Shown piece by piece: positions 4,053 through 37,108 of a stretch of 37,108 bases of DNA. The position numbers and the translations under genes were made by a program. The notes under the pieces were generated by a model, which had not been told where the DNA came from, made no database searches, and saw nothing but the letters and a program-made list of their open reading frames with translations. Location of the stretch: positions 1 through 37,108 of IMG/VR virus record IMGVR_UViG_3300024520_000229. One strand, written 5' to 3'. Each line of letters opens with the position of its first letter. Position 1 is the first letter of the stretch. This DNA comes from a virus.

Positions 4053-5348
4053 ATGGCACAGAAGGTATATACGCCCGATGATAGGCGATTTCAGAATATT
4101 AATGGGGTTGTTAGGGAGGCATTAAATACTCACTCCTTGGGAATTGATAACGCTGCTTTAAATAGCACAGTGGTGGTTAAAACATCCGCTGACTTTGGCA
4201 CGATTGATTCAACCAAGGTTTATTACATTGATGGTGTGATTGACATGACTGGCGTGACTGTGGAAGTTCCTGCGGGTGGTATTAGCTTAATTGGATCCAC
4301 TTTTGATATATCAAAAATGGTCTCCTCTGATAATAGCTATGATATGTTTATCTCTGCTGCGGGTGGTTGTGGTAATGTATTAGCCCAGGATATAGGGTTC
4401 GAGGCTTCAGGCACAAGTTCCCAAGTTTGGAACCTAACAAGCTTAACGGGAAATGAAGCTTTTGAGTTTGCAAAAATAAATTACAATAATTGCACTAAAG
4501 TGGGAACATTAACCAATTTCCGTCAAGGACTAGAGCTTGGAACGGGCCGATTTGGTGGAACTCCTTCGCTCGAACTTATCGGGGTTTGGGCGGGTGGTTA
4601 TCGTATTACTACTAGTATTGTTCGCTCATTAGATGCTGGTATGACTGACCCTATATTCAAGGCCGGTGCGGGATTTGCAATGGCCTCACGATTTCTAACA
4701 GACATAAACTGTGACCTTCCCGCCTTAGCTGCCTTTTGTGACTTTACTCCGTCTCAGTTTGCTAACCCTTCAACAGTGCAGGTATCGGGCGCTATCTTTT
4801 CACGTGATGGTGTTTTTGATGCTGCTGACGCTAATATTTTCAGTAATTTACTAGCCACAGATATAGCTTCAGACTTCACGGGAAATAAAGGAATTGCCAA
4901 CACTTTTGTTGGTGGGCGAAGCGAGATTACAACAGAAGTACTAACGACCATAACAACGGGCGGAGTATTTGAAACACTGCTCGGAACCTTTACCGCATCA
5001 AACATGTCGCACTTTGATAGTCCATCCAATGGACAATTAAGGCATATTGGCGACAATCCAAGAGAGTATAGGATAATAGCTACAATAACCCTTGAGGGTG
5101 GCGCTAATGATGTTGGTTCGATTCGCGTAAGAAAGTGGGATAACTCAGCCTCCTCCTTTGTTAATCTAAATACGCAATCAAGACAGATCAATAGCCTGGT
5201 TGGTGGGCGAGATGTGGCATTTTTTACAATCATTGAAGATATCATACTGGATCAAAATGATTATGTATTCTTGCAGGTAGCCAATGAAACAGACACATCT
5301 AATTTCACGGCCGAGCTTGGAAGTTATTTTATTATAAACGAAAGATAG
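4053..5348 (+). CDS. Putative tail spike or fibre-like protein
   Basis: A 431-residue protein, rich in Gly, Thr, Ser and Asn. The middle has short beta-strand-like turns (GTIDSTKVYYIDG, EVPAGGISLIGSTF) as in right-handed beta-helix spikes. The last 130 residues (from about 295) read like a compact jelly-roll (RIIATITLEGG, FTAELGSYFIINE), as in receptor-binding tips. No signal peptide or enzyme motif is visible. GAGG precedes the ATG. The place is odd: it stands alone between large terminase and portal, with a terminator on each side, while the other fibre genes are at 18-22 kb. A virion surface or receptor-binding protein is the best guess. Confidence 0.55.
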   Translation: MAQKVYTPDDRRFQNINGVVREALNTHSLGIDNAALNSTVVVKTSADFGTIDSTKVYYIDGVIDMTGVTVEVPAGGISLIGSTFDISKMVSSDNSYDMFISAAGGCGNVLAQDIGFEASGTSSQVWNLTSLTGNEAFEFAKINYNNCTKVGTLTNFRQGLELGTGRFGGTPSLELIGVWAGGYRITTSIVRSLDAGMTDPIFKAGAGFAMASRFLTDINCDLPALAAFCDFTPSQFANPSTVQVSGAIFSRDGVFDAADANIFSNLLATDIASDFTGNKGIANTFVGGRSEITTEVLTTITTGGVFETLLGTFTASNMSHFDSPSNGQLRHIGDNPREYRIIATITLEGGANDVGSIRVRKWDNSASSFVNLNTQSRQINSLVGGRDVAFFTIIEDIILDQNDYVFLQVANETDTSNFTAELGSYFIINER

Positions 5349-5434: not shown

Positions 5435-6688
5435 ATGTATAACCCTTTTAAGAAAATATTAAAAAGCTTCGGTTATGGCCGTTCAAGCGGAATAACTGTA
5501 GGTGATATTATATCCGTTGATAAGTACTCCAATGACTTATCAAGCACAATGAATTACGCACAGTTGGCCGATAGTGGTTATATAAAAAACTATGTGAGCA
5601 ATAAATGCATTCGCGCGACTATGCAGGCTTTGGGTGATTTAAAGTTTGATATTTTGATCAATGGCGAGAATATTGCCGATAAAACAGATAGGGTTTCAGT
5701 TGCTTTTAAAAACCTGGTTCGAGATCCAAACGCGGATTATTCATGGGGTGACTTTATTGGCGCTGTATATAACGGCCGGACAATTGATGGATCCGGCTAT
5801 GTGTATCCTGAGTTTTATAATGACGGGCGGCCGATGAGTATTGAGTACTTCCGGCCCGATAGAGTAACAAAGATTTGCTCTGAAGATGAGCGCATACATT
5901 CTTATTTATATAGCCGTGGTTCAAGGCAACAGGTGTTTCAACGTGATGAAGATGGCCGGTTTGATTTGCTAGAATGGCGGGCTTATAATCCAGTAAATGA
6001 CATTAATGGTTTGAGTAGTGTAAGGACTGCCGGACTGGCGATAGATGGCCTAACCGCTGCCGAGCGATGGAATAAACAGATTTTAGAGAATGGCGGTAAA
6101 TATTCAGGGATTGCCAGTGTTGTAGATGGTGAGAATATGCAGCAATTAGATGAAGAGGAACTGACAAAACTTGAGAATAAATTCAACCAAAAAGCTAACT
6201 CAAGCCTAGGTGGTTGGTTAATATCAAATGCACCATTGAAGATTGAGTCTATGGGACTTAATGCCAGTGAACTAGATTGGGTTAATGGAATGAGGGCTTA
6301 TGCTGTTGGTATCGCTAACTCTATGGATTACCCTCCTTTCTTACTTAATCTTGAATCAACCACCTTTACCAATATGGATTCAGCGAAGTTGTTTTGGTAT
6401 GAGGCTTCGATAATTCCAAAAGCTAATGACCTTTACGGAAGACTAGGGGCGTTTTATAGTCGTAAATTAGGAATGGATGTAGAATTCAAAGTAGACCTTA
6501 CAAAGATTGTGGCATTGTTTCCAAGAATGATTGAGTTATCTGACTTTACACGGAATTTATATAAAGATGGCTTAATCAGTCAAAATGAAGGCCGTGAAAA
6601 ACTAAATCTAGAACCAACTGCTTTTGGTGATGATCTTTTTACTGATCAGAATAATACTCCTGCATTTGGCGCGGAGCCAATGACATAA
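5435..6688 (+). CDS. Portal protein, HK97 type
   Basis: The portal forms the dodecameric ring at one capsid vertex, through which DNA enters and to which the terminase and tail bind. At 417 residues it fits the HK97 family. Typical stretches are NYVSNKCIRATMQALGDLKF near residues 44-63, LVRDPNADYSWGDF near 93 and IANSMDYPPFLLNLESTTFT near 292-311. These correspond to the early helix, the wing region and the segment before the tunnel helix in known portals. It comes directly before the Mu F-like gene (ATG at the portal stop), the usual order of head genes. Confidence 0.93.
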   Translation: MYNPFKKILKSFGYGRSSGITVGDIISVDKYSNDLSSTMNYAQLADSGYIKNYVSNKCIRATMQALGDLKFDILINGENIADKTDRVSVAFKNLVRDPNADYSWGDFIGAVYNGRTIDGSGYVYPEFYNDGRPMSIEYFRPDRVTKICSEDERIHSYLYSRGSRQQVFQRDEDGRFDLLEWRAYNPVNDINGLSSVRTAGLAIDGLTAAERWNKQILENGGKYSGIASVVDGENMQQLDEEELTKLENKFNQKANSSLGGWLISNAPLKIESMGLNASELDWVNGMRAYAVGIANSMDYPPFLLNLESTTFTNMDSAKLFWYEASIIPKANDLYGRLGAFYSRKLGMDVEFKVDLTKIVALFPRMIELSDFTRNLYKDGLISQNEGREKLNLEPTAFGDDLFTDQNNTPAFGAEPMT

Positions 6689-7509
6689 TGGCTAGTGACG
6701 CAAACTTAGATAGCCAATTCGATTCAATCCTTCGCATATACGAAAGTAAATTAGAGCGAAAGCTTAGAGCAAACTTTAATTACTTGTCGCGTCAAATGCT
6801 GCAAGCATGGATTGAATCCGGTGAGTTTATCGCACAAGGTGCAATTACGGCCAATGAAGAACAGCTTGAAGCAATCCTACAAGAATCCTATGAGCAAACA
6901 ATCATTGCCGGTAGCAGATTTGGCCGGAGAATGGTTGAGGAGAAGGACAAGGAAAAAGAGGATTCACTGGCAGAAGAGGCGCTATTACTTTTGTTATTGT
7001 GGACTCGTGAAGAAGCTGCAAAGACTAGCAAGGAGCTAAACAAAACCACGCGCAAGATCTTCAATAAGTTCCTGGACGAAGGCATTAAAGAAGGGTTAAC
7101 GAACAGCCCGACTATTATTGATGGCGTTACCAACACGACTTCCACCGGAAAGAATGAGCTATCTGACTTTGTGATCAAGAGCACTAAAAAAGCAAACATG
7201 AACAGAGCTAAGACAATAGCCACCACTGAATCCCAAGCTGGTTTACAGAATGGCATTGAAAAGAGCGCTGAGGTGATGAATGAACAAGCGCTAGTGGTGT
7301 TTAAAAAAAAATGGAGAAGTCAGCAGGATTCAAAAGTCAGGGATTCTCACGCTCGTGTAAATGGCCAAGTAAAAGAGATTGGGGATTATTTCTTAGTAGG
7401 GCGTGGTCGTGGATTAAGGCCTTTAGATAAGAACCTCCCGAAGGAGGAAGTTATCAATTGCCGGTGTTTTTTAATGCTAAGTAAGCATAATATTATTACT
7501 GAGATTTAA
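6688..7509 (+). CDS. Head morphogenesis protein, Mu F/SPP1 gp7-like
   Basis: A 273-residue minor head protein. The N-terminal half is strongly helical and charged. The C-terminal part has the family marks AKTIATTESQAGLQNG (about 171-187), SKVRDSHARVNGQ (about 212-224) and the closing INCRCFLML. Proteins of this family bind the portal and enter the prohead, and some travel with the DNA. It starts on the portal stop (ATGG after AC ATA ATG) and ends in a 4-bp overlap with a leftward gene, so two converging transcripts meet here without a terminator. Confidence 0.88.
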   Translation: MASDANLDSQFDSILRIYESKLERKLRANFNYLSRQMLQAWIESGEFIAQGAITANEEQLEAILQESYEQTIIAGSRFGRRMVEEKDKEKEDSLAEEALLLLLLWTREEAAKTSKELNKTTRKIFNKFLDEGIKEGLTNSPTIIDGVTNTTSTGKNELSDFVIKSTKKANMNRAKTIATTESQAGLQNGIEKSAEVMNEQALVVFKKKWRSQQDSKVRDSHARVNGQVKEIGDYFLVGRGRGLRPLDKNLPKEEVINCRCFLMLSKHNIITEI

Positions 7510-7727
7510 TCTATAGGAAAAAACTTGAAATTGGATTGGTTTCTTCCAGTCCATACAACAACGTGGTTATGTATAGGACTAATTATTGAGTTATATGAAG
7601 GCTTAAATATATCCATCAAGCGAGGGTGATCAGTTTTAAATAATTCAAAAACCTCCTCGTGTGTATGGGCTTTGTATAAACTGCCCACAATATCTGTTTT
7701 TGCAATTTTAGCAAAGAAGTATTTCAT
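7506..7727 (-). CDS. Unknown small protein, last gene of leftward cassette
   Basis: The product is 73 residues, aromatic-rich and basic (MKYFFAKIAK at the start, NFKFFPID at the end), with no recognised domain. It is the most distal gene of the leftward cassette. The ribosome site is poor (GAAATG), so coupling to the gene 10 bp upstream is possible. Its stop overlaps the convergent head morphogenesis gene. Confidence 0.6.
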   Translation of the reverse strand: MKYFFAKIAKTDIVGSLYKAHTHEEVFELFKTDHPRLMDIFKPSYNSIISPIHNHVVVWTGRNQSNFKFFPID

Positions 7728-7737
7728 TTCAATTATT

Positions 7738-7902
7738 TTATTGTCCTTTTGTTTTTTTATCTTCTTTCATCAATTGCGAGACCTCACAGTTGCAATAACA
7801 GTATAACGCCCAATGTGCAGGCTCTGTCAAACCCATTAGTGTGCCTATTATACTGAATATAGCACAGCCGACAAGTAAGCTAATTATTGATGAGATCCTC
7901 AC
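7738..7902 (-). CDS. Small membrane protein, 54 aa
   Basis: I choose the GTG at 7902 because AAGGAG lies 8 nt ahead and because it gives a GTGA overlap with the preceding frame; an ATG at 7920 would add six residues. Residues 5-25 (ISSIISLLVGCAIFSIIGTL) form a transmembrane helix, followed by CYCNCE and a basic tail. It could be a host-membrane moron or exclusion protein, which is an inference from size and context. Confidence 0.65.
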   Translation of the reverse strand: MRISSIISLLVGCAIFSIIGTLMGLTEPAHWALYCYCNCEVSQLMKEDKKTKGQ

Positions 7903-8084
7903 TTCCCTTTCTCCTTCCATTGAAACTCGCCACTTACTCTATTTGTCTCACCGTAGCCGTATTCAATAGCTTGTTTTTTAATTAGCTTTAGTTCTCCATT
8001 TATCTAATCAAATGCCCATGCATTTAAAATTGCTAGAACTATGAACCCTAATACTACAAGTGTTGATTTTTTTTCATCACTCAT
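7899..8084 (-). pseudogene. Small membrane protein interrupted by an in-frame TAG
   Basis: From the ATG at 8084 (GGAG site at proper distance) 26 codons encode a charged start and a hydrophobic helix (LVVLGFIVLAILNAWAF), then TAG at 8004-8006. The same frame continues for 34 codons (starting INGELKLIKKQ) to a TGA that overlaps the next gene by GTGA. The overlaps at both ends suggest a single ancestral gene of 61 codons. TAG is a normal stop elsewhere in this genome (3705, 5348). It is either a nonsense mutation, read-through, or a genuine 26-residue peptide. Confidence 0.6.
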
Positions 8085-8242
8085 CTTATATTCTCCCTAT
8101 GCAGTTTTAAAAAATACCGGCTAACATTACCACCGGCTACTTTATCGATTGTGTGTTTTTCTTCTTGTGTTACTCTGATATTTATGGACGTGCTTTTGGT
8201 CACGTCCTTTTTTGAGGCCTGGTTTCCTTTTTTAAATCTCAT
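8081..8242 (-). CDS. Ribbon-helix-helix-like protein, 53 aa
   Basis: The ATG at 8242 lies inside the end of the gene before. A basic start (MRFKKGNQASKKD) is followed by TKSTSINIRVTQEEKHTI, a beta strand plus helix typical of CopG/Arc RHH folds, and then AGGNVSRYFLKLH as the second helix. RHH dimers bind operators with the strand. As the only DNA-binding candidate in the cassette it may repress the cassette promoter at 8945-8973, which carries an inverted repeat. An upstream ATG in the same frame exists but would overlap the previous gene much more. Confidence 0.6.
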   Translation of the reverse strand: MRFKKGNQASKKDVTKSTSINIRVTQEEKHTIDKVAGGNVSRYFLKLHRENIR

Positions 8243-8468
8243 CTGAAAACATTGATGAGGTGAGCATGTTATCAATTTCAACATTAATAAGAAGTTCAAT
8301 TTCACCTTGAATCTTTTCAAGCTCCCTAAAAAGCAAACCTCTTGCCTCCTGCTCTGTACGGCCGAACATGGCGATAATTTCCGTCCCGTCAGATATGGCT
8401 TTGGCTTGAAAGGCGATTGAGCGAGGTACTACTGTGTGGCTTTGTGTTTTTTCGATGGTGATAGTCAT
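8232..8468 (-). CDS. Unknown acidic protein, 78 aa
   Basis: The start follows AACGGAGAATAAA, the shared phage leader, with good spacing. The protein begins with a beta-rich part (MTITIEKTQSHTVV) and ends in an acidic helix, LLFRELEKIQGEIELLIN. No family is recognised. It overlaps the RHH gene by 11 bp. Small acidic proteins in such cassettes are sometimes DNA mimics or inhibitors of defence; nothing here shows that directly. Confidence 0.65.
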   Translation of the reverse strand: MTITIEKTQSHTVVPRSIAFQAKAISDGTEIIAMFGRTEQEARGLLFRELEKIQGEIELLINVEIDNMLTSSMFSDEI

Positions 8469-8492
8469 TTTATTCTCCGTTGGTTTATTGGT

Positions 8493-8506
8493 GGCCCCGA
8501 AGGGCC
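8493..8506 (-). promoter_or_regulatory. cUUCGg-type hairpin between cassette genes
   Basis: On the minus strand GGCCC-TTCG-GGGCC folds into a tight hairpin with a cUUCGg-type loop. The core GCCCTTCGGGGC is identical to one before the first gene of the other leftward operon (25997-26008). There is no T run, so it is more likely an RNA stability or processing signal than a terminator. Confidence 0.6.
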
Positions 8507-8513
8507 GTGGGTG

Positions 8514-8885
8514 TTATCTTTCAACTACTAGGGCGAAGCTTAGAGCCTCATCATATGCTTGGTTATGCATATAGATTAACTCCTTTCTTGAGAGCTTAAG
8601 GTACTTATGCGCCTTGTTGGCGATTGCCTCAAGCTCTTTATACTGAGCTTTAAAGCGCTGATTATCCATGGCGGAATTTACTGCGACCCATGCGACACCG
8701 TCACGGATAAAATAAGCCCGCTTAAGACTGAATGACCAACGACATTCAAGGCCGCCCTGTGCGTGGTGCTCCTCCTGGCCGGTGGTGTGATTGACAAAAG
8801 TAAACCCTCCACATCTTAGAGTGATGAATGCACTCTTGTTAGAGTTGATTGCTTCGAGGGTGGTAGTGAAAGTTGACTGTGACAT
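8514..8885 (-). CDS. Unknown protein, first gene of leftward cassette, 123 aa
   Basis: ATG 8885 is chosen because AACGGAGAACACC stands before it; an upstream in-frame ATG at 8966 would lie on the promoter itself. The product starts MSQSTFTTTLEAINS and shows a beta-rich first half (ITLRCGGFTFVNH, GGLECRWSFSL) and a helical second half. No known domain is recognised. As the promoter-proximal gene of an independently expressed cassette inside the head region, it should be the most expressed and is the main candidate effector. Confidence 0.75.
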   Translation of the reverse strand: MSQSTFTTTLEAINSNKSAFITLRCGGFTFVNHTTGQEEHHAQGGLECRWSFSLKRAYFIRDGVAWVAVNSAMDNQRFKAQYKELEAIANKAHKYLKLSRKELIYMHNQAYDEALSFALVVER

Positions 8886-8944
8886 GGTGTTCTCCGTTGG
8901 TGGCTTAATTGCCGGTGGCTTGATTGCCGTTGCTTGTGTCAATA

Positions 8945-8973
8945 ATAGTACTCGTTTTGTATACACAAATCAA
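8945..8973 (-). promoter_or_regulatory. Promoter of the leftward cassette with inverted repeat
   Basis: Read on the minus strand, TTGATT (8973-8968), 17 bp, TACTAT (8950-8945). An inverted repeat TTTGT-ATAC-ACAAA (8956-8969) covers the -35 and spacer and could be an operator. Confidence 0.75.
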
Positions 8974-9007
8974 GGAGGCTTTGAAAAATAAATACACATT
9001 TGCTTTT

Positions 9008-9081
9008 TGCTATAATTTACCCAAGGAAAAAAACGCCTTGAATTGTACAAAATTGACACTTAAATTAGTAAAAACCATAAG
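9008..9081 (+). promoter_or_regulatory. Candidate promoters before the prohead protease
   Basis: TGCTATAAT at 9008-9016 is an extended -10 without a clear -35. A second option is TTGACA (9054-9059), 16 bp, CATAAG (9076-9081). Either would restart head-gene transcription after the leftward cassette. Confidence 0.45.
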
Positions 9082-9104
9082 TTAATGTAAATAATGGATA
9101 TATT

Positions 9105-9767
9105 ATGGAAAAAAAGACGCTGGAATTTAAGTTAGATAATATTAACGCTGACACTGGCGTTTTTGAGGGAATTGGCAACAAAACAGACTTCAAAGACTTT
9201 GCAGAAGATATTATTTCTAAAGGCGCGTTTCAAAGAAGCGTATCAAAAAAGATGCCCAAACTACTTTGGCAGCACAAGACAGATGAGCCTATCGGGATCT
9301 TTACAGAGGCCTATGAAGATGGTGAAGGCCTAAAAGTTAAGGGCCAATTACTTATTAATGATGTACAGCGCGCGAAAGAAGCCCATGCATTATTGAAAGC
9401 CGGAGCGATTGATGGGCTAAGTGTTGGTTTTAGTATTCCTGCCGGTGGCGCTGAAATGAAGAAGGACGGCACAAGGATCATCAAGGAAGTTAATTTACAT
9501 GAGGTTTCACTTGTTACGTTTCCGTGTAATTCAGCCTCTACAGTTTCAAGCGTCAAGTCAGTAGATGATATGACGGAAAGAGAATTTGAAAAGTCACTGC
9601 GGGATGTTGTTGGCTTATCAAAAACACAAGCTAAAGCTCTTATGAGTAAAGGCTATATCGCTATGAATGATGCAATGAGTCGGGATGATTTAGGGCAACA
9701 GGAAGAGCAACAAGAAGAAAAGACCAACAACTTGAGCGATTTGCTCACTTACTTAAAAACTAAATAA
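9105..9767 (+). CDS. Prohead protease, HK97 (U35/S78) family
   Basis: This serine protease is built into the prohead; it removes the scaffold part of the capsid protein and then itself. The family signature is visible: LLWQHKTDEPIG with catalytic His57 and IDGLSVGFSIP with Ser106. EVSLVTFPCNSAS around 135-147 matches the conserved strand after the active site. At 220 residues it is a normal size. The last 40 residues are polar and Gln/Glu-rich (QQEEQQEEK). It is followed after 9 bp by the major capsid gene, the standard order. It has been separated from the portal genes by the leftward cassette. Confidence 0.93.
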   Translation: MEKKTLEFKLDNINADTGVFEGIGNKTDFKDFAEDIISKGAFQRSVSKKMPKLLWQHKTDEPIGIFTEAYEDGEGLKVKGQLLINDVQRAKEAHALLKAGAIDGLSVGFSIPAGGAEMKKDGTRIIKEVNLHEVSLVTFPCNSASTVSSVKSVDDMTEREFEKSLRDVVGLSKTQAKALMSKGYIAMNDAMSRDDLGQQEEQQEEKTNNLSDLLTYLKTK

Positions 9768-9776
9768 GGTAAAAAC

Positions 9777-11000
9777 ATGTCCGAACTAAACGACATCAAA
9801 ACTCTCATCACTGAGAAAATGACAATTACTGAAGAGTATAAGAAAGAGCTTAAAGCCGATTCTGAGTCTAAGAGTACTGAACACAAAGAAGCTATTGATA
9901 AGATTGACAAGCGCTTTGATGCTATCCAAGATTCTATGGATAAGCTTGAGAAGTCCGCGAAATCTCAGACTATATCCAAAGATATGGAAAAGACCGCTTC
10001 CAATAGAAAGCAATGTGCTGAGTTTGTTAAAGGCTTGCGCGACATGATTCAGAACAGCCAAGCAGTTATTAAAACTAACGAAATGGCTTCTGTTAAAGAG
10101 CTGAAGAATTACAACTCTGGTGACGATGCCAACGGTGGTGTTTTTGTTATGCCGTTCCTGGATCAAGAGCTGGGCAAGTTGATGCGTGAATTTTCTATGG
10201 TTCGTGATTTAGCCAATGTTAGTTCAATCTCCACTGATAAGTGGGAGCAGATTGTTATGAACAAGGTTAATGGCGCGAATTGGGAAAAGGATATGGCCAA
10301 CTTCACAGACCAAACCAAGACCAACAAGTTTAATCAGCTTAATATCATGGTTCAGAATCTACACGCCATTGCTATTTTCAGCGATGACCTAATCAATGAT
10401 TCTGCATTTGATATTGTTGGCGCTATTCTGACAGATATTGCCGAAGATATGGCAATCGCTGAAGGTCTTTCTTATTGGACTGGTTCAGGTATTGGTGAAA
10501 TGACTGGTATTTTGACTGTTCCAACTGCTGCTAATTCTTTTAATAGTATCGAGCGTGTTACAGCTGCAAATGCTAACTCTATTGTTATGGAAGACATTTA
10601 TAACCTTACAGGCTCATTGATTCCACGATACCAGGCGAACGCGCAATTTAAAGCAAACCGCGACACCATTACAGAGTTAAGAAAGCTCCGCAGTGATTCA
10701 GGTGCCGGTGCCGGAACAGGTAATTTCCTTTGGCAGCCAAGTAATCAAGCCGGAGTCCCTGACGTTCTAGCCGGTTACCCAATCAGCCAAGCTCAAGAGT
10801 TGTCTGCTACTCTTACCACTGGCATTGAAGGTGTTGTTTTTGGTGACTACCGTCAAGCCACTAAAATAGTTGATGGCATGGGTATGACTGTTCTTCGCGA
10901 TAACCTCACACAATATCCAAACATCGCTTACAAAGTTAAGAAGCGTGTTGGTGGTGGTGTTGTTAAAGGCCAAGCACTTAAAATTCTTAAACAAGCTTAA
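9777..11000 (+). CDS. Major capsid protein, HK97 fold
   Basis: A 407-residue capsid protein. Residues 1-75 are a charged coiled coil, the delta-domain scaffold that the neighbouring protease should remove. The mature part starts with the usual pattern near residue 117 (NGGVFVMPFLDQELGKLMRE, the N-arm). The middle shows FSDDLINDSAFDIVGAI and a C-terminal domain with FGDYRQATKIVDGMGMTVLRDN, matching the P- and A-domain order of HK97-like proteins. Cross-linking residues cannot be judged by eye. It is the head building block of this virion. Confidence 0.93.
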   Translation: MSELNDIKTLITEKMTITEEYKKELKADSESKSTEHKEAIDKIDKRFDAIQDSMDKLEKSAKSQTISKDMEKTASNRKQCAEFVKGLRDMIQNSQAVIKTNEMASVKELKNYNSGDDANGGVFVMPFLDQELGKLMREFSMVRDLANVSSISTDKWEQIVMNKVNGANWEKDMANFTDQTKTNKFNQLNIMVQNLHAIAIFSDDLINDSAFDIVGAILTDIAEDMAIAEGLSYWTGSGIGEMTGILTVPTAANSFNSIERVTAANANSIVMEDIYNLTGSLIPRYQANAQFKANRDTITELRKLRSDSGAGAGTGNFLWQPSNQAGVPDVLAGYPISQAQELSATLTTGIEGVVFGDYRQATKIVDGMGMTVLRDNLTQYPNIAYKVKKRVGGGVVKGQALKILKQA

Positions 11001-14082: not shown

Positions 14083-14414
14083 ATGATGGCGAGGCTCAGT
14101 ACTGGTTTGATTTAGCGGAAAGCCAAAACAAAACAGTATCAGAATTAATGGGGCTTCGGCCTCCTGGTTCTCAGTTATCAATGAATGAATTTCTTTGGTG
14201 GGTGGCAAGATCAGCCAAGAAGCCTTTACCTTGCGTTCGTGATGAGTTTTTTAATGCGCGTTCAGTTTACTTTAGTTATGGCAACTCAGGCACTGATAGA
14301 CCTTACAGGGGTTTAGGTGATGCCGTTGTTGACTGGTTTAAAGTTGATGAGTTAGACGATGACGAATTTTTAGATATTGCCAAGCAGGTAATTAAGGAAA
14401 AAAAGAATGGCTAG
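13657..14414 (+). CDS. Tail assembly chaperone, frameshifted (GT-like) form
   Basis: A -1 slip on the run of 11 A at 14057-14067 joins the short form to the frame that continues through 14067-14414 (starting IECFVNDGEAQYWFDLAESQ). The fused protein has about 252 residues. The second part is acidic near its end (DELDDDEFLDIAKQ) and includes a Trp-rich stretch (EFLWWVARSAKKP). Slippage could occur in translation or in transcription of the homopolymer. The ATG at 14148 lacks a good site, which supports fusion. The 3' end overlaps the tape measure gene. Confidence 0.8.
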
Positions 14415-16104
14415 ACTAATAGAAGAAATAATCTTAAAGGTCGATGTTGATTCTTCCGGCCTTGATGAAACAGTAGATAAAAGTACTGACTCAGTCGATG
14501 ACCTCACAAAAAGTGTAGATGATAATAAAAGCTCTTTAGGTGCTTGGGCTGCTGTTGCGGCCACTGCTGCCGGCATTGCTGGTATTGGTTTACTTGTTAA
14601 GACTCAGGCTGAGGCAGTTGTTGAAACAGATAAATATGCCAAGCGCTTAGGGATAGCCACCCAAGAACTAATGGCATTGCAAGCCGCTGCCGGATCATTT
14701 AATATTGAAGCGGAAGATGTAAACGAAGGCCTTAAGAATATGGTAGAGCGTTTGGGGGAAGCATCGCTTGAAGGTCAAGGCGCTACTTTTGACGCTATTA
14801 AAAGATTGGGCTTAGACCTTAAAGAACTTGAGTCATTATCTACTGAAGACAAATTCATCGCAATATCTGACGCATTATCTAAAGTTGAAAGCAATGCCGA
14901 GAGAACTTTCTTACAAATGGAAATAGGCCAAGAAGAGTTTTTTAAACTTGGCGAATTCATGCAGACTGGCGCGGGCGATATGCGTGACTTAATCAAAGAA
15001 TCAAAAAGATTAAGCGGGAGCCTTTCTGATTTAGATATTGAAAATATACGTGGTATGGAATCTGCCGCAGCAGGGTTATCCACTGCTTTTGGTTCTGTTT
15101 TCCAGGAGATAGCGGCCAACGTTGCTCCGGTAATGGAAACGCTTTTGGATATAGCCTCAGATTTATTTGTTTCTTTCCGCGAGGAAGGAATGCCATTAAT
15201 ACAAGTTTGGGCGACCGACTTAACAGACTCCTTTTTGAACTTTGTTAATAATATACTTCCCGCAATCTTAACGGTCGGAAGCGCTGTTTTTGATTCAATG
15301 GTAAATATAGTCATTGCCTTTGGTGATATTGTTGGCACTGTTTTTAGTACTATAGGAAGCGGGTGGGCGTTGCTTGGTAATGAAGTAGCCGGTGAAAGAA
15401 ACTGGATTGATGATATCACGGCTTCTATTTCAATAGCTGCTAAAGCTTGGCCGGAGTTATTACAGAACGCTTTTCTGAATATCGCAAGTTCTATCTCAAG
15501 TGTTTTATCTGCGGTTGAGGATAAGTTTTTTAGTGTTTTATTTGCTGTACAGACTGAGGCTCTTATTGCTGCGAATGCAATTGGTAAGATCAGCAATGAA
15601 GAACTAGAAGCCGGTATCATTGACATTGGTGAGAAGGAAGGCCAAAGAGATAGAGAGGGCGGGTTTTTTGATGAACTCAAGGCATCACAAGAATCATTAA
15701 TTGCCGGAAATAATGAAGTAATTGATAGCATAGCAAGTGAAATTGTATCTAGTCAGAATGGTTTTAAATCTGCTGTGGGTGAAGCAATAAGCAATCTAAA
15801 AGGCTCATTAAGTGGATTGGATAAAGTGGCTCTACCCGATAAAATTGACGGTAAGATAAAGCCCAAGCGGGACGATGATAAGAAGAAGAAAGAACAACAG
15901 CAAAAAATTAAATCACCATTTGAAGCGCTAGAGCTTGGAAGTAAAAAAGCCCTTGACTTATTGGCATCGCGAGAGACACCAAAAGAAGACGACTTACTTG
16001 ATGTTAATAAAATGCAATTAGAAGCCGCTGATAAAGCTGTGATTGCACTTGAGCAGATAGCAAAAAACAAAACTAATACAATTAATACCGGAACTTTAGG
16101 ATAA
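14407..16104 (+). CDS. Tape measure protein
   Basis: The longest tail gene before the fibres, 565 residues. It begins with ILKVDVDSSGLDETVDKS, the usual start of tape measures, followed by a hydrophobic helix at about 45-65 (WAAVAATAAGIAGIGLLV). Helical, alanine-rich regions (AAAGLSTAFGSVFQEIAANV) and a mid-protein hydrophobic part (about 280-360) follow, then a basic C-terminal coil with a Lys-rich run. It sets tail length and enters the host envelope at injection. By the rule of about 0.15 nm per residue the tail would be roughly 85 nm, an inference. Confidence 0.9.
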   Translation: MARLIEEIILKVDVDSSGLDETVDKSTDSVDDLTKSVDDNKSSLGAWAAVAATAAGIAGIGLLVKTQAEAVVETDKYAKRLGIATQELMALQAAAGSFNIEAEDVNEGLKNMVERLGEASLEGQGATFDAIKRLGLDLKELESLSTEDKFIAISDALSKVESNAERTFLQMEIGQEEFFKLGEFMQTGAGDMRDLIKESKRLSGSLSDLDIENIRGMESAAAGLSTAFGSVFQEIAANVAPVMETLLDIASDLFVSFREEGMPLIQVWATDLTDSFLNFVNNILPAILTVGSAVFDSMVNIVIAFGDIVGTVFSTIGSGWALLGNEVAGERNWIDDITASISIAAKAWPELLQNAFLNIASSISSVLSAVEDKFFSVLFAVQTEALIAANAIGKISNEELEAGIIDIGEKEGQRDREGGFFDELKASQESLIAGNNEVIDSIASEIVSSQNGFKSAVGEAISNLKGSLSGLDKVALPDKIDGKIKPKRDDDKKKKEQQQKIKSPFEALELGSKKALDLLASRETPKEDDLLDVNKMQLEAADKAVIALEQIAKNKTNTINTGTLG

Positions 16105-26572: not shown

Positions 26573-27376
26573 ATGTCTGGATGGATTAGTCTACATAGAA
26601 AGCTTGCTGATAATCCACTGTGGCTTTCGGAGCCATTTACAAGAGCTCAGGCATGGGTAGATATGATATTACTGACAAACCATAAGACTGGCTTCATATA
26701 TCAGAGAGGAGTTAAAGTAGATATCAAAAGAGGTGAATTGGGGTGGTCGCAAGTTGCCCTTGGCAAGAGATGGCAATGGTCAAGAGGTAAAGTAAAGCGG
26801 TTCTTAAATGACATGGAAAAGGAACAGCAGATAATACAGCATAATAATAATGTAAGTTGCTTAATTGCAATGATTAACTACAATGAATATCAAGGAGGTA
26901 GTACAGCAAATAGTACAGCAGACGGTCAGCAAATAGTACAGCAGACGGTCAGCAAACAGTACACTAACAATAATGATAACAAAGAAAACAAGGATAATAA
27001 AAAGACTCTCCCTTCACCTCAAGAGGCGAAGTATTTGTCATTTAATAAAAGATATTTAGAGAAGCTCCATGAGTCGGCTAGTAATGGCCATATACCAAAG
27101 CAGCCTGCCAGTCGTAAGAGTGACAATAAAGCGTGGGTGGATGCAATAAGGCGGCTTGAAACAATAGATGGATATTCATGGCAAGAGATAATAGAGACTG
27201 TGACATATTACTTCTCTACTGAAATTAAAGAGGTGGAATATAAGATTGAGGCATTTAGTATGGATGCGTTTAGGAAAAAGTATACAAACATTAGAAACAA
27301 AATGATGAAGGCTGATCGTTCGCCCAAAGAGCTATCAATGGCCGATAGAATTAAACAAAAGCAAGGAGAGTTATAA
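26573..27376 (+). CDS. Replication initiator, phage O/DnaD-like
   Basis: A 267-residue protein. The N-terminal part (ISLHRKLADNPLWLSEPFTR, AWVDMILLTNH, RGELGWSQVALGKRWQWSR) is the winged-helix domain typical of phage replication proteins. Residues about 95-150 are a Gln/Asn/Lys-rich linker, and the C-terminal part (YLEKLHESASNG ... DGYSWQEIIETVTYYFS) is a separate helical region that should bind the helicase. It is followed directly by the DnaB-like gene, the lambda O-P order. GGCGGAGTAAT is the ribosome site. It probably binds an origin within or near its own gene; the Gln-coding direct repeat AGCAAATAGTACAGCAGACGG region is a candidate. Confidence 0.8.
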   Translation: MSGWISLHRKLADNPLWLSEPFTRAQAWVDMILLTNHKTGFIYQRGVKVDIKRGELGWSQVALGKRWQWSRGKVKRFLNDMEKEQQIIQHNNNVSCLIAMINYNEYQGGSTANSTADGQQIVQQTVSKQYTNNNDNKENKDNKKTLPSPQEAKYLSFNKRYLEKLHESASNGHIPKQPASRKSDNKAWVDAIRRLETIDGYSWQEIIETVTYYFSTEIKEVEYKIEAFSMDAFRKKYTNIRNKMMKADRSPKELSMADRIKQKQGEL

Positions 27377-28659
27377 TGGAGCTAGCTTACACGGAGGGCG
27401 CGCTATTGTGCCGCCTAGCAAACGACTTCAACACTCTGGATGAAGTCAAGGTATTATCAGAGGAGGCACCATTTAGCAATTATAATTATAATATTGCTCT
27501 TAAGTGCATCCGGCAATCATTGGCAGAAAATGAAGGGGAGTCGAAGCGGGTAATTAAAAGGCGCTGGTTTGATCTGTATTATATCCAAACCTCAGTTAAG
27601 GGCGTGGAGTTACAGAAAGAGCTTAAGCAATATGCCAGCTACAGCGACACCAAAACAGAAGCCATTGAAAAGAACTTCATGGAATATTATTGTTTGCGTA
27701 AGTTATCGGCCCTTGGTGGATTGCTAACGAATTGCATGAATGATGAACTCATTTCAAGTGACCACATAAGCCATATAAACACGGTTGTAACACAATTAGA
27801 CGATGCGACTATACAAGAGGGCGAAATAACAAACAAAGACTGCCACAGGGCTTTAATTGAGAAGATGCAGCGAAAGCTTGAAGGCAATGAGGATGCTATA
27901 AGCTCCGGACTTTATGAACTGGATAAAATCATAGGCGGATTTATCAAGAAGCGCATTTACTTAATAGGCGCTAGAACCTCAATGGGTAAGACTGCACTTG
28001 CGCTTACTTTCATGGATCACTTTGTTTTTAGCCTTGGGATGAAATGCGCATTTATCAGCGTTGAAATGACTGAAGCTGATTTATATGAGCGAATGGTTCA
28101 AATAAGATCCGGTTATAACTTTGATGAATCCTTTAGTAAGTCTTCAATGAACACTTTCCTGGAGACTTCCGACCAGATGCAGAAAAACGAAAACTTAATC
28201 ATTAAGAAAACAACCGATAGAAGAATCGGCAATGTTAAGAGTATGTGCCGGAGATTAAAGCGGGACAATCCAGATTTGGAAGTTATCTTTGTGGATTACA
28301 TTCAGAAGGTTTTGAGTAATGACCCTAAAAAAGAAATGGTTGGAACTATTGAAGAGGTTTCTGGTGTACTTACTGATATAGCTGATGACTTGGATGTGGT
28401 TATGATGCCGCTCGCACAGCTCAAACGCCAGCAAGACCCAAAAGCTTTCCCTGCACTAGAGGGCTTGAAAGGCGCTGGTAGGCTCGAAGAAGATGCCTCA
28501 ATGGTTATGTTATTGCACCGTGATAGCCGGAGCGCTGAGGAGGGCGTTATTATAGTTGACAAGAATAGAAGCGGGCCGACTGGCATAGCGCAAATCCAAT
28601 ACAATACATCAATAACTAAATTCAGCAGCCAAATAGATGCCGGTTATGAGTATAATTGA
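27376..28659 (+). CDS. Replicative DNA helicase, DnaB-like
   Basis: A 427-residue hexameric helicase that unwinds the fork. Walker A GARTSMGKTAL lies at about 198-208, after GLYELDKIIGGFIKKRIYLI; AFISVEMTEADLYERMVQI follows. The Walker B is EVIFVDYIQKV near 302-312 and LAQLKRQ is the next family motif. GAGRLEEDASMVMLLHRDS (about 369-387) is the typical DnaB motif H4 region. The N-terminal domain is divergent. It starts one base into the initiator stop (TAATGG), which fits loading by that partner. The host should supply primase, because none is seen here. Confidence 0.93.
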   Translation: MELAYTEGALLCRLANDFNTLDEVKVLSEEAPFSNYNYNIALKCIRQSLAENEGESKRVIKRRWFDLYYIQTSVKGVELQKELKQYASYSDTKTEAIEKNFMEYYCLRKLSALGGLLTNCMNDELISSDHISHINTVVTQLDDATIQEGEITNKDCHRALIEKMQRKLEGNEDAISSGLYELDKIIGGFIKKRIYLIGARTSMGKTALALTFMDHFVFSLGMKCAFISVEMTEADLYERMVQIRSGYNFDESFSKSSMNTFLETSDQMQKNENLIIKKTTDRRIGNVKSMCRRLKRDNPDLEVIFVDYIQKVLSNDPKKEMVGTIEEVSGVLTDIADDLDVVMMPLAQLKRQQDPKAFPALEGLKGAGRLEEDASMVMLLHRDSRSAEEGVIIVDKNRSGPTGIAQIQYNTSITKFSSQIDAGYEYN

Positions 28660-31095: not shown

Positions 31096-31315
31096 TTCAG
31101 ACTTATTTAAGGTGAGTGAAAGCATAATATCAAGAGAATTGACTTTAGCACTTTTCGGACTGGTCACAATTAAGGAAAAAGTCGAGAAGATTCACGAGTT
31201 GTCTAGTTTAATAAATGGTGTGATTCTAGACGATGATCTTTCATTGGCTAGTAAACAGAACACGATTGTAATTATCAATAGTCAAATAATGGCATTAACA
31301 CAAGGTTTAAAATGA
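31088..31315 (+). CDS. Unknown helical protein, 75 aa
   Basis: The frame starts MISSDLFKVSESIISRELTL and is almost fully helical and neutral, with a leucine-rich middle. No family is recognised. It is coupled with both neighbours (8-bp overlap and ATGA). Confidence 0.6.
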   Translation: MISSDLFKVSESIISRELTLALFGLVTIKEKVEKIHELSSLINGVILDDDLSLASKQNTIVIINSQIMALTQGLK

Positions 31316-31983
31316 GCAACACAGGCAACAGGAACATAGGCGACAGGAACATAGGCAACAGGAACATAGGCGATAGGAACGCAGGCGACTGGAACACAGG
31401 CGACTGGAACACAGGCAACAGCAACACAGGCGACTGGAACACAGGCAACAGCAACACAGGCGACTGGAACGCAGGCTACAGGAACACAGGCGACAGGAAC
31501 ACAGGTAACAGGAACACAGGCGACTGGAACATAGGCAACAGGAACACAGGCGACTGGAATAATGTTGATAAAGAGACAGGGTTTTTTAATACTGTCGATG
31601 CTGAGACAGTCAGGGTTTTTAATAATGATTGCAATAAATCGCTATGGGAAAATTCAGAGAAACCATCTTTTTTATATTTTGATCTGACCCAATGGATACG
31701 ATCAGATGATATGACCAACGAGGAAAAATCAGAAAACCCTGAGCACGAAACCATTATGGGCTATCTAAAAAAGTATGATTATAAAGAGCAGTTTAAAAAG
31801 TCATATAATGAAGCCAGTCAAGAAGATAAAGAGTTATTGTTAAAACTGCCTAATTTTGATGCGGATGTATTTTTGGAAATTTCAGGAATTGACGTTCGTA
31901 AAAATAACAATACGGATAAAATAGACGCTATTAATATGAAAATAAAAGAACTTCAAGAAGAAGTAGATAAACTCAAGGTTTAA
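31312..31983 (+). CDS. Pentapeptide-type NTG repeat protein with helical tail
   Basis: A 223-residue protein. Residues 3-84 are about 16 copies of a five-residue unit, N-[TIA]-G-[DN]-[RWS], one 15-bp DNA unit each (31318-31560). This pattern (N.G.. repeats) belongs to the Pentapeptide_2/PPE-like type and should fold into a narrow beta-solenoid. The second half is charged and helical (MTNEEKSENPEHETIMGYLK, ending in a coiled coil). Solenoids of this kind can mimic DNA or form scaffolds; no function is proven here. The DNA repeats are near identical, so copy number may vary between relatives. Confidence 0.8.
   Translation: MSNTGNRNIGDRNIGNRNIGDRNAGDWNTGDWNTGNSNTGDWNTGNSNTGDWNAGYRNTGDRNTGNRNTGDWNIGNRNTGDWNNVDKETGFFNTVDAETVRVFNNDCNKSLWENSEKPSFLYFDLTQWIRSDDMTNEEKSENPEHETIMGYLKKYDYKEQFKKSYNEASQEDKELLLKLPNFDADVFLEISGIDVRKNNNTDKIDAINMKIKELQEEVDKLKV
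31318..31560 (+). repeat. 15-bp tandem repeats within the repeat protein gene
   Basis: About 16 units of the form AACACAGGCGACTGG and near variants are arranged head to tail and stay in frame. They code the five-residue repeats. The low divergence points to recent expansion. Confidence 0.85.
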
Positions 31984-34326: not shown

Positions 34327-34491
34327 ATGAGCAATTTTAATAATTTAGTGATTCCAACATGTACAGAGTATGCCCAATATTTACTTATAGAATATATGCA
34401 TGGTGGTGTTTCTGATGATTCTTATCAATTATTTATGGAAGCAAGAAAAAGACAGATAAGAATTCATAACGATAGGCAAGGTTTATTATGA
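34327..34491 (+). CDS. Small protein before terminase small subunit, 54 aa
   Basis: The ATG at 34327 follows TTTAAAGG and lies 3 bp after the stop of the zinc-binding gene. The product starts MSNFNNLVIPTCTEYAQYLL and is helical. Its stop overlaps the small terminase start (ATGA), so it belongs to the packaging operon. Function unknown. Confidence 0.6.
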   Translation: MSNFNNLVIPTCTEYAQYLLIEYMHGGVSDDSYQLFMEARKRQIRIHNDRQGLL

Positions 34492-34898
34492 GTGAAGAAA
34501 GAAAAAGCAACGCAGGAAGGCCACCAGCTTTTGTTAATGATGAAGAGCTTCAAGAGTTGGTTGATTTATATTTCCAAGAGCTTGAGTATCAGGATGATAA
34601 AGGCAATACGTTTACTAAGCCCGCAACCATTACAGGTATAGCTTTAAGGTTGGGATTTTGTAGTAGGCAATCATTTTATGATTATGAAAAAAAGTCGGAA
34701 TTTACTTACACAGTAAAAAAAGCAAGGCTTAGAGTTGAAGAGAGTTATGAAAATCATTTGTTCGGGAAGTCATCAACAGGTGCGATATTTGCGCTTAAAA
34801 ATATGGGTTGGACTGATAAGATGGAAGTTGAAAGTACAGTGGAAGTTACCGGACGGCCGCTGATAAGTTTTGGCGATACGAGTAAAAAAGGAGAGTAA
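34488..34898 (+). CDS. terS: Terminase small subunit, gp3-like
   Basis: A 136-residue DNA-recognition subunit that selects the packaging site. The family pattern of P22 gp3-like/phage packaging proteins is clear: NAGRPPAFVNDEELQELVDL at 8-27, then ITGIALRLGFCSRQSFYDYE (about 49-68, the helix-turn-helix), KKARLRVEESYENHLF and GAIFALKNMGWTDKMEVE. The large subunit is 4.6 kb further on if the window is read as a circle. It starts on the stop of the gene before. Confidence 0.9.
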   Translation: MSEERKSNAGRPPAFVNDEELQELVDLYFQELEYQDDKGNTFTKPATITGIALRLGFCSRQSFYDYEKKSEFTYTVKKARLRVEESYENHLFGKSSTGAIFALKNMGWTDKMEVESTVEVTGRPLISFGDTSKKGE

Positions 34899-35357: not shown

Positions 35358-35383
35358 ACCCAAGCCGCTATCTTAGATAAGAA

Positions 35384-35412
35384 AGCCTTACTTTAATTAG
35401 TAGGGCTTTTTT
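35384..35412 (+). terminator. Rho-independent terminator of the terS operon
   Basis: AGCCTTACT (35384-35392) and AGTAGGGCT (35399-35407) pair around TTAATT, followed by six T and GTGC. First of three similar terminators in this region. Confidence 0.9.
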
Positions 35413-35664
35413 GTGCATGGGGTATTGTATTAATTGCCAATTGTATTATTATTAGTCAAGACATTAAGCAAAGCCCTTTAACTTGAGATTCTTAGAGTCA
35501 GAGTGGGCTTGTACTGTTCAAAGCTTGGCGCTTGCAGTGTTTAATGTTTGTTTATATAAATGTATTTGATTACAAGCCGGACATCCTTGGGAAAAAGGTT
35601 TTATATACTCCCTGTTCAAAGCCAACGCGCTTGCAGTAAGCCTTATCATTAATTTGATAGGGCT
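35413..35664 (+). ncRNA. Non-coding stretch with twin hairpins, candidate small RNA(s)
   Basis: No credible gene is seen. Two near copies, CTGTTCAAAG..CGCTTGCAGT at 35514-35538 and 35612-35637, lie 98 bp apart; each can fold into a similar hairpin and their loops, TTGGC and GCCAA, are complementary. A promoter-like pair TTGCAG (35532) and TATAAA (35555) stands between them, and a terminator follows the second. One or two small RNAs or an RNA switch is likely. Confidence 0.5.
35532..35560 (+). promoter_or_regulatory. Possible promoter inside the non-coding stretch
   Basis: TTGCAG (35532-35537), 17 bp, TATAAA (35555-35560). It would start an RNA of about 100 nt that ends at the terminator at 35664. 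Confidence 0.45.
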
Positions 35665-35669
35665 TTTTT
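35639..35669 (+). terminator. Rho-independent terminator, second of three
   Basis: AGCCTTATCA (35639-35648) pairs with TGATAGGGCT (35655-35664) around TTAATT; six T and GTGC follow. Confidence 0.9.
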
Positions 35670-35674
35670 GTGCC

Positions 35675-35702
35675 TTGAATCACGCTCATAACAATGTATA
35701 TT
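35675..35702 (+). promoter_or_regulatory. Promoter of candidate small RNA
   Basis: TTGAAT (35675-35680), 16 bp, TATATT (35697-35702), directly after a terminator. The expected start CTAAGCAGCGAATTAA is like the ATAAGC starts of P1, P2 and P4. Confidence 0.7.
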
Positions 35703-35748
35703 ATAATCTAAGCAGCGAATTAATCTAAAGAAATTAACGAAAAGGCCA

Positions 35749-35817
35749 ATGATCGCTGAAGCCACGCCAATGGCTTTGGGTCACCAGTTAACGAAGTTAG
35801 ATCAACCTAGCAATTGA
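35749..35817 (+). CDS. Possible micro-gene, 22 aa
   Basis: A 22-codon frame (MIAEATPMALGHQLTKLDQP, end SN) with AAAGG only 3 nt before the ATG, which is closer than ideal. It overlaps the stems of the candidate RNA. Low confidence; listed because the transcript has a promoter and terminator of its own. Confidence 0.25.
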   Translation: MIAEATPMALGHQLTKLDQPSN

Positions 35818-35877
35818 TCCAAGCAGTACCAAAGACCACTAAGACTTATAACCACTGGAATGGCTATAGATCCTTTA

Positions 35878-35908
35878 AGCCTCACTACGGGAATAGTGGG
35901 GCTTTTTT
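35878..35908 (+). terminator. Rho-independent terminator, third of three
   Basis: AGCCTCACTA (35878-35887) pairs with TAGTGGGGCT (35894-35903), followed by six T and GTGC. Confidence 0.92.
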
Positions 35909-35942
35909 GTGCTTACAATCTACCACGCTTTTTATATACGCC

Positions 35943-35971
35943 TTTAACATAATACAATCGTATGTTATTAG
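35943..35971 (+). promoter_or_regulatory. Possible promoter/operator of the prepilin operon
   Basis: TTTAAC (35943-35948), 17 bp, TATTAG (35966-35971). The spacer holds ATAC-AATC-GTAT, and AACATA/TATGTT face each other outside it. The -35 is weak, so an activator or repressor may act here. Confidence 0.4.
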
Positions 35972-36010
35972 TACCGGTTAAAACTATTAGCCTAGTAATC
36001 ATAGCTGGTG

Positions 36011-36037
36011 CTTCCCCGTTCTGTAGGAGCGGGGAGG
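36011..36037 (+). promoter_or_regulatory. Stable 11-bp leader hairpin before the prepilin operon
   Basis: CTTCCCCGTTC (36011-36021) pairs with GAGCGGGGAGG (36027-36037) around TGTAG, with two wobbles. No T run follows. It stands 14 nt before the AAAGGTG ribosome site, so it may control or protect this mRNA. Confidence 0.6.
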
Positions 36038-36058
36038 CTTAACTCTAAAGGTGATTAT

Positions 36059-36157
36059 ATGTATGAGATATGGTTTTATATGGTGTTGCATTTAATCGCG
36101 TTATTTGGCGCGGTATTCGTTTCAATCTGCTTCCTGGTCGATGAGGTGACGGCATGA
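36059..36157 (+). CDS. Small single-helix membrane protein, 32 aa
   Basis: The product starts MYEIWFYMVLHLIALFGAVF and is one hydrophobic helix with a short acidic end (LVDEVTA). AAAGGTG precedes the ATG. Its stop overlaps the prepilin-like gene (ATGA), so the two are made together. It could be a holin-like or pilin-partner peptide; neither is shown. Confidence 0.65.
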   Translation: MYEIWFYMVLHLIALFGAVFVSICFLVDEVTA

Positions 36158-36600
36158 AATTCACGCTCATTGAGATGCTGGCAGTGATCACTATCACGTC
36201 ATTCTTGTTGGTCATGGTGCTATCTATTAAGGTTGGCAGCGGAGTCAATAGCAAGCAAGCCCATGTGGGGGAACTCATAGAAGCCGCTAAGATGGCCAAT
36301 ATACTCACAGCTGAAGATTCTATCGTGACTAATAACGGAATGGATGTAACGGCCACTTATTACGAGCATACCGGCAATGGCACGACCGCGCAAGTCACCA
36401 GGTCAATTCAATTGAATGGTGTATTGCTTCAGATGTTCAGGGGGCCGAATCCAGTAAGCTCATTTACTTTTAGGCAGTTCGAAGTCTTTCCGGCAGGGCC
36501 AGAGGTACGGCTTGAGATGTCAACGCCTAAAGATAAAGGCGGGGTTATACGGGTGAATAGCTTTACAGGTAGGCTGAGTTATTATGAGGCGGCACAATGA
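36154..36600 (+). CDS. Prepilin-like protein (type II secretion/type IV pilin N-terminus)
   Basis: A 148-residue protein that starts MKFTLIEMLAVITITSFLLV, the N-terminal methylation motif with the FTLIE core, invariant Glu at +5 and a hydrophobic helix (residues 3-25). The leader before Phe is only MK and lacks the usual Gly at -1, a form known to me from Lentisphaerae-type pseudopilins. Residues 30-148 form a soluble head rich in beta strands (VTATYYEHTGNG, SSFTFRQFEVFPAG, GVIRVNSFTGRLSYYE). It should insert in the inner membrane and could be processed by the host prepilin peptidase and join or block a host pseudopilus or type II secretion system. It is the middle gene of an ATGA-coupled trio. 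Confidence 0.8.
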   Translation: MKFTLIEMLAVITITSFLLVMVLSIKVGSGVNSKQAHVGELIEAAKMANILTAEDSIVTNNGMDVTATYYEHTGNGTTAQVTRSIQLNGVLLQMFRGPNPVSSFTFRQFEVFPAGPEVRLEMSTPKDKGGVIRVNSFTGRLSYYEAAQ

Positions 36601-36710
36601 ATAAGTCAGAGTATGAGCGGTTGAAGCAGGCTATTGAGCGGGACTTGATAATAGCTAGAAAGGCGATAATTAGGGCGACAAAAAAGCTATTTGATAAGAC
36701 TTATAAGTAA
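36597..36710 (+). CDS. Small lysine-rich protein, 37 aa
   Basis: The frame starts MNKSEYERLKQAIERDLIIA and ends KKLFDKTYK, a single basic helix. The start overlaps the prepilin-like stop (ATGA). Its last 24 codons are repeated at the window start. No family is recognised. As part of the prepilin operon it may be a partner, or a regulator of the repeat region in which it ends. Confidence 0.65.
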   Translation: MNKSEYERLKQAIERDLIIARKAIIRATKKLFDKTYK

Positions 36711-36762
36711 TCTTTATACATTATATAAGTAATCCTTATATATTATCATCTACTATCATGTG
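36636..36762. repeat. Terminal direct repeat, right copy
   Basis: Identical to 1-127; see the left copy. This copy is complete with the start of its gene. Beyond it five CTATCA-like words continue at 36753, 36763, 36775, 36785 and 36795. Confidence 0.85.
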
Positions 36763-36827
36763 TTATCACTTTAATTATCACCTACTATCATATACTATCA
36801 ATGTTCAGAAGCTTTGAAAGATGCTAC

Positions 36828-36856
36828 TTGACAAGGTTTTTATGAGAAACTATACT
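36828..36856 (+). promoter_or_regulatory. Consensus sigma70 promoter, right branch
   Basis: TTGACA (36828-36833), 17 bp, TATACT (36851-36856), the best match to the sigma70 consensus in the window. A pyrimidine-rich leader (36860-36920) follows, then GGGATAAGCAAAA before the last gene. Confidence 0.85.
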
Positions 36857-36985
36857 ACGGCTTCTTTCTCTTTTCTTTTACCTGGTTTTCTTTTCTCTTT
36901 CTTGTTTTGCTACTTTGTTTAGCAGGTTAAGAACATCAGATGAAGAACATAAGAAGCATAAGCAACAACAACGGGATAAGCAAAA

Positions 36986-37108
36986 ATGCAAATTAGAATT
37001 GATTTAAAGAAGATGCGCCACTTAAGAGATGAGTCCTGCTATAATCATAATTACTATGCATATGGCAATCAAGGCCAGAAGTTGCTTCAGGTTGGCAATG
37101 AGGATGGC
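36986..37108 (+). CDS. Start of an unknown gene, cut by the window end
   Basis: The ATG at 36986 follows AACGGGATAAGCAAAA, the same leader as the genes at 934 and 1274. The 41 visible codons start MQIRIDLKKMRHLRDESCYN and continue with a Tyr/Asn/Gln-rich stretch. No family can be named from this part. It belongs to the branch that differs from the left end of the window. Confidence 0.6.
   Translation, partial: MQIRIDLKKMRHLRDESCYNHNYYAYGNQGQKLLQVGNEDG

Follow-up and report, generated by a model that had tools for sequence, protein, structure and literature searches.

Why a tailed phage should carry a gene whose product begins like a type IV prepilin, and what such a product might do in the infected cell, is the question raised by a small operon close to one end of a viral contig. 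The window analyzed here, 37,108 bases, is the whole IMG/VR record IMGVR_UViG_3300024520_000229 and encodes a tailed phage, whose genome is probably complete and which is otherwise unclassified. In the leading interpretation, to which a probability of roughly 0.35 is given, the operon would be a horizontally acquired moron, the central product of which mimics a minor pilin of a type IV filament and thereby interferes with the filament of the host.

Organization of the cassette and closure of the phage genome

Three plus-strand open reading frames (ORFs) coupled by ATGA overlaps make up the cassette (36059-36710), which confirmed the original prediction of a 148-residue protein placed between peptides of 32 and 37 residues. 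The first ORF (36059-36157) encodes the hydrophobic membrane peptide MYEIWFYMVLHLIALFGAVFVSICFLVDEVTA (32 residues), the second (36154-36600) the prepilin-like protein, designated P0001, with the sequence MK-FTLIEMLAVITIT, and the third (36597-36710) the basic, helical peptide MNKSEYERLKQAIERDLIIARKAIIRATKKLFDKTYK (37 residues). For the two short peptides, no family match was found in Pfam, NCBIfam or PHROG. Shine-Dalgarno-like sequences (AAAGGTG, GAGGTG and GAGG, respectively) are located 5-7 nt upstream of the ORFs. AT-rich direct repeats consisting of TATAAGTAATCYTTATA and ACTATCAT units lie just 3′ of the cassette (36702-36810), and similar units occur at 117-160.

Upstream of the cassette, a plus-strand intrinsic terminator (35877-35904) is the third of three near-identical GGGCTTTTTTGTGC terminators, which are spaced by about 240-260 nt within a stretch devoid of clear genes (35376-35912). 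This stretch between the small terminase gene and the cassette possibly gives rise to short non-coding transcripts; it had no Rfam match, and the RNA-family search of the whole window was empty. The candidate promoter TTTATA-16-TACAAT (35931-35966, plus strand) is a match to the consensus only, of a class that is not above chance. It is overlapped by the inverted repeat AACATA-N9-TATGTT (35946-35966), which covers the -10-like TACAAT and might be an operator. While the repeat noticed originally is thus present, its operator-like character is weak, as it is single-copy and the motif is not unusual (four near-matches compared to 3.6 expected). By contrast, the stable hairpin predicted upstream of the cassette was borne out. 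The structured leader (35995-36058, plus strand) comprises a GC-rich hairpin at about 36007-36044 within an outer stem (35995-36002/36051-36058), and folding of the segment 35985-36060 yielded -29.9 kcal/mol, compared to -19.3 ± 2.9 kcal/mol for shuffled sequences (z -3.6), none of the 200 shuffles being as stable. Due to the overlap of the outer stem with part of the Shine-Dalgarno sequence of the first gene, the operon may be regulated at the level of translation.

The tailed-phage genes comprise those for the small terminase (34488-34898), large terminase (2437-3705), portal (5435-6688), head morphogenesis (6688-7509), head protease (9105-9767), major head (9777-11000) and tape measure (14407-16104) proteins and a DnaB-like helicase (27376-28659), besides genes for a DnaD-like helicase loader, SSB, exonucleases and a dUTPase. 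The left contig end (1-127, plus strand) is identical to 36636-36762 over exactly 127 bases, and the circle closes there, inside the third cassette gene; beyond this overlap the two copies diverge. An overlap fixed at 127 bases is the signature left by a de Bruijn assembler run at k = 127. Most simply, the record can be read as a circular or circularly permuted genome of about 36.6 kb which closes inside the gene of the 37-residue peptide, the remaining bases (36763-37108) being an alternative branch from a variant. This tail begins with a short lead-in, AACAACGGGATAAGCAAAAATG, which it has in common with the start of gene 934, and continues with a different ORF. A chimeric assembly, which had been named at the outset as a possible source of the cassette, was rejected on account of the exact closure, with both contig ends joining inside the cassette. 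It follows from the junction that the cassette is bounded by the small terminase gene on one side and by the HNH endonuclease and large terminase genes on the other. Since the two terminase genes are adjacent in the Pseudoalteromonas phages H105/1 and HS5, the interval between them looks like a cargo region in this phage, and the alternative branch indicates that the content of this interval varies in the population.

The vicinity of the terminase genes would also suit a virion or lysis component which is made late in infection and is not aimed at host filaments, and the 32-residue peptide could be a small holin-like protein. Nevertheless, this is a very improbable explanation: a PHROG structural or lysis match was not obtained, the cassette possesses its own upstream terminator and leader, and the structural genes are arranged in order elsewhere.

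Origin of the cassette

Among the 44 genes with at least 90 codons, the gene of P0001 deviated most in codon usage (by 0.205 bits per codon above the expected value, followed by 0.160 for the next gene). Its GC3 value is also the highest (0.53, compared to 0.23-0.49 for the others). Judged by this codon usage and by the phage genes on both flanks, the cassette looks acquired, as phage cargo within a tailed-phage genome. The second most atypical codon usage was detected in a minus-strand ORF (8514-8966). A region of about 1.6 kb between the head morphogenesis and head protease genes (7510-9100) lacks clear plus-strand genes.

Sequence relatives of P0001 were found neither in named phages or plasmids, nor by peptide patterns in IMG/VR or GTDB genomes, nor in 294 genomes belonging to the phylum of the bacterial isolate SZUA-421 (see below), nor in 32 viral records having one gene in common with the phage. 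The lone weak match in these 32 records is located inside a frame of 625 residues and is not a pilin. Scans with the pattern MKFTLIEM revealed one real bacterial prepilin (L086) and otherwise chance matches. Relatives identified by the large terminase have at most three genes in common with the phage, which therefore is an orphan. None of the related phages carries the cassette, for which reason selection on it cannot be shown. The gene at 4053-5348, which encodes a 431-residue phrog_16509 protein with 45-64% identity to counterparts in at least 80 IMG/VR contigs and in Pseudoalteromonas phages, was rejected as a lineage marker because it is common to otherwise unrelated phages; it is a widely exchanged head-region gene.

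The foreign codon usage and the lack of phage relatives, as well as the missing glycine described below, might also be explained by a host pilin gene that was captured recently, lost its leader on capture and is now being lost as a functionless passenger. The tight ATGA coupling, the good ribosome-binding sites and the strong leader hairpin, however, look like a tuned operon and make such a passenger quite unlikely.

N-terminus and head domain of P0001

The N-terminus of P0001, FTLIEMLAVITITSFLLVMV, comprises a hydrophobic helix with Phe at position +1 and Glu at position +5, as is typical of prepilins. The residue at position -1 is Lys (MK/FTLIE) and not the Gly by which prepilin leaders end. 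Since the ATG is preceded in frame by a stop and the codons GGT-GAC-GGC, none of which is a start codon, the absence of Gly is real and not an annotation error. The Pfam model N_methyl (PF07963) scored 14.3 bits (E 0.03 against 24,736 models) at a cut-off of 21.2 bits, and the NCBIfam model TIGR02532 scored 13.0 bits at a cut-off of 16.3 bits. Values below the cut-off fit a two-residue leader without Gly, as the match begins at Phe+1. A position matrix was derived from 25 pilin-type proteins encoded at GspH-family loci, using residues 1-22 of the mature forms. P0001 scored 24.2 bits with this matrix; among the 711,456 positions in 6,135 viral ORFs, the runner-up scored 15.2 bits. As far as sequence can tell, the type IV prepilin signal is genuine and above chance, and the assumption that a phage operon encodes a prepilin-like protein was supported. 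In 828 kb of related viral contigs, a scan by regular expression did not reveal any other candidate with a prepilin-like helix.

The head domain was studied by modelling and by comparison with minor pilins. In a single-sequence AlphaFold model of P0001, a helix (residues 5-47) is followed by strands at 56-60, 65-72, 78-85, 103-111 and 118-123, which is the order of a pilin, albeit at low confidence (pLDDT 54.6, pTM 0.42). A Foldseek search with this model gave no meaningful match, but since a bona fide bacterial pilin modelled in the same way fared worse (pLDDT 33.6), this negative result carries no weight. In one out of 398 Pseudomonadota genomes, a FimT/FimU-like minor pilin encoded beside PilV- and PilW-like genes matched P0001 (E 0.0013, 29% identity over residues 3-144). 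Its head score of 57 exceeded all of 400 shuffles (maximum 53), but as it is the best partner from 398 genomes, the significance is marginal and the match only suggestive. A GspH profile built from 24 proteins did not score the P0001 head above shuffles, and Pfam did not match the head to the GspH/FimT family (PF12019). The C-terminal motif IRVNSFTGRL occurs in 11 of 25 GspH-locus proteins and in 4 of 2,878 viral ORFs, the pattern having been chosen after P0001 had been seen. What P0001 has in common with the FimT/FimU/GspH minor pilins is the alpha-beta order, the C-terminal motif and its best partner in the genomes (L259). What separates it from them is a score below the family cut-off, the negative profile test and the lack of Gly at -1. 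On these comparisons and the model, the odds lie slightly on the side of a GspH/FimT-like minor-pilin head.

The scores of the curated pilin families, all of which remained below their cut-offs, the negative results of the head-profile test and of Foldseek and the adjoining gene for another small membrane peptide would be expected as well of an ordinary small phage membrane protein (exclusion protein, holin-like or signal-anchor protein) with an N-terminus merely resembling a prepilin and an unrelated beta-rich domain. Such a protein is unlikely, though, given a prepilin match which lies 9 bits over the next of all positions, is placed exactly at the N-terminus and includes Glu at +5.

Phage-encoded prepilins, possible function and host

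Prepilin-like proteins encoded by phages are already known, and P0001 adds an orphan example without Gly at -1. PHROGs contains a family named 'pilin' (phrog_3433; moron, auxiliary metabolic gene and host takeover). Prepilin N-termini also occur in five or more unnamed PHROG families (phrog_13280, 11596, 27437, 11263 and 10597). Several of all these families are matched by four IMG/VR viral prepilins. The proteins of these families are, like P0001, phage-encoded and possess a type IV prepilin N-terminus. P0001 differs from them in that it has no PHROG match even at E ≤ 1, no Gly at -1 and its own head of about 120 residues. IMG/VR was also scanned with the pattern FTLIEM followed by a hydrophobic residue and Ala or Val. 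A GFTLIEMM family is present in six viral contigs (L093, L096, L106, L107, L110 and L122) and is related to a protein of the isolated Synechococcus phage BUCT-ZZ01 (UTS52068.1). It resembles P0001 in the prepilin N-terminus and, in some contigs, in the ATGA coupling to phage neighbours, but its members comprise 73-86 residues, have the canonical Gly at -1 and an unrelated C-terminal part. The core GMTE(M/V)RCIDGYKF(V/I)...MDEFGKG was observed in L093 (5701-5958), L110 (4537-4773, reverse complement) and L290 (1995-2246). The family sits in a coupled operon in other contigs, and in two contigs the gene adjoining the prepilin presumably encodes a UvsW-helicase-like protein. In further viral contigs, position -1 of the prepilin is Ala or Ser. 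A literature search did not yield a paper on phage-encoded prepilins or on their role.

A prepilin resides in the inner membrane, its leader facing the cytoplasm, and cannot be assembled until the leader is cut (PMC7248040). As a prepilin does, P0001 would insert into the inner membrane, where it would encounter the assembly machine of a type IV pilus or type II secretion system of the host. With its two-residue leader and with Lys in place of Gly at -1, the protein should be cleaved poorly by a canonical prepilin peptidase and would therefore remain anchored in the membrane, where it would poison or cap the assembly of filaments. Neither a prepilin peptidase nor a tyrosine integrase was found in the phage, which would thus have to use enzymes of the host and gives no clear sign of being temperate. 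The benefit might be that competitor phages which depend on pili are excluded, or that release from pili becomes possible in the course of infection. From membrane insertion onwards, we infer every step of this scheme. Phage proteins disabling type IV pili are the PilB-binding proteins Aqs1 of DMS3 and Tip of D3112 and the PilC-binding PfsE, an inner-membrane peptide of 30 residues encoded by Pf4 (PMC8764522). None of them is a pilin mimic, as P0001 would be. The 32-residue cassette peptide resembles PfsE in size and membrane nature, a sequence relation not being claimed, and by analogy may help in the way that PfsE does by binding PilC. It is conceivable, though rather unlikely, that a cleavage-resistant decoy minor pilin and a PfsE-like peptide jam filament assembly together, which would be exclusion by pilin mimicry and not by motor binding. 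The known shut-off of type IV pili by phages relies on small proteins aimed at the motor or the platform; interference by a pilin mimic that resists maturation would, if true, be a different and simple route to this end. Two points contrast with interference by P0001. Without an integrase, a prophage, the usual setting of superinfection exclusion, is not evident, and some lineages, for instance SZUA-421, do without Gly at -1.

The main rival, a doubtful one, is a working minor pilin or pseudopilin: a host peptidase that tolerates residues other than Gly at -1 would cleave P0001, which is then built into a filament and alters its tip, adhesion or secretion to the benefit of phage or host. Phe+1 and Glu+5, both of which are required for assembly, are present, the viral prepilins with Ala or Ser at -1 point in the same direction, and a genome with dozens of prepilins in which the -1 residue is unconstrained does exist. 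The genome of 'bacterium isolate SZUA-421' encodes 48 prepilins, and 15 of the 18 that were read carry N, S, Q, K, W, H, T, R, E, V or D at -1 before FTLIEML. The original prediction had ascribed many prepilins without Gly to the Lentisphaerae; a lineage of this kind was thus found, while its identity as Lentisphaerae was not confirmed. On the other hand, the leader of P0001 consists of just two residues, the lineage signals of the phage point to Pseudomonadota and not to the phylum of SZUA-421, and the Pseudomonadota minor pilins that were read have Gly at -1 except for one with Ala.

The Lentisphaerae/PVC host that had been suggested is likewise not supported by these signals. Relatives of the large terminase (E ≤ 1e-20) were detected in 69 of 398 Pseudomonadota genomes but in none of 392 genomes of SZUA-421's phylum, a contrast to which unequal prophage loads could contribute. 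For genes other than that of the large terminase, the named-phage relatives are mostly phages of marine Pseudomonadota, with some of Flavobacterium and Clostridioides; the best ones, for several genes, belong to Pseudoalteromonas, Rheinheimera, Roseobacter, Colwellia and Flavobacterium phages. Ribosome-binding sites precede 38 of 58 phage genes, compared to 18% at random positions, and common ribosome-binding sites argue against a Bacteroidota host. A phrog_14105 protein (31312-31983) matched proteins of Rheinheimera, Roseobacter and Clostridioides phages with 43-47% identity; the relatives of this protein are annotated as pentapeptide-repeat or hypothetical proteins.
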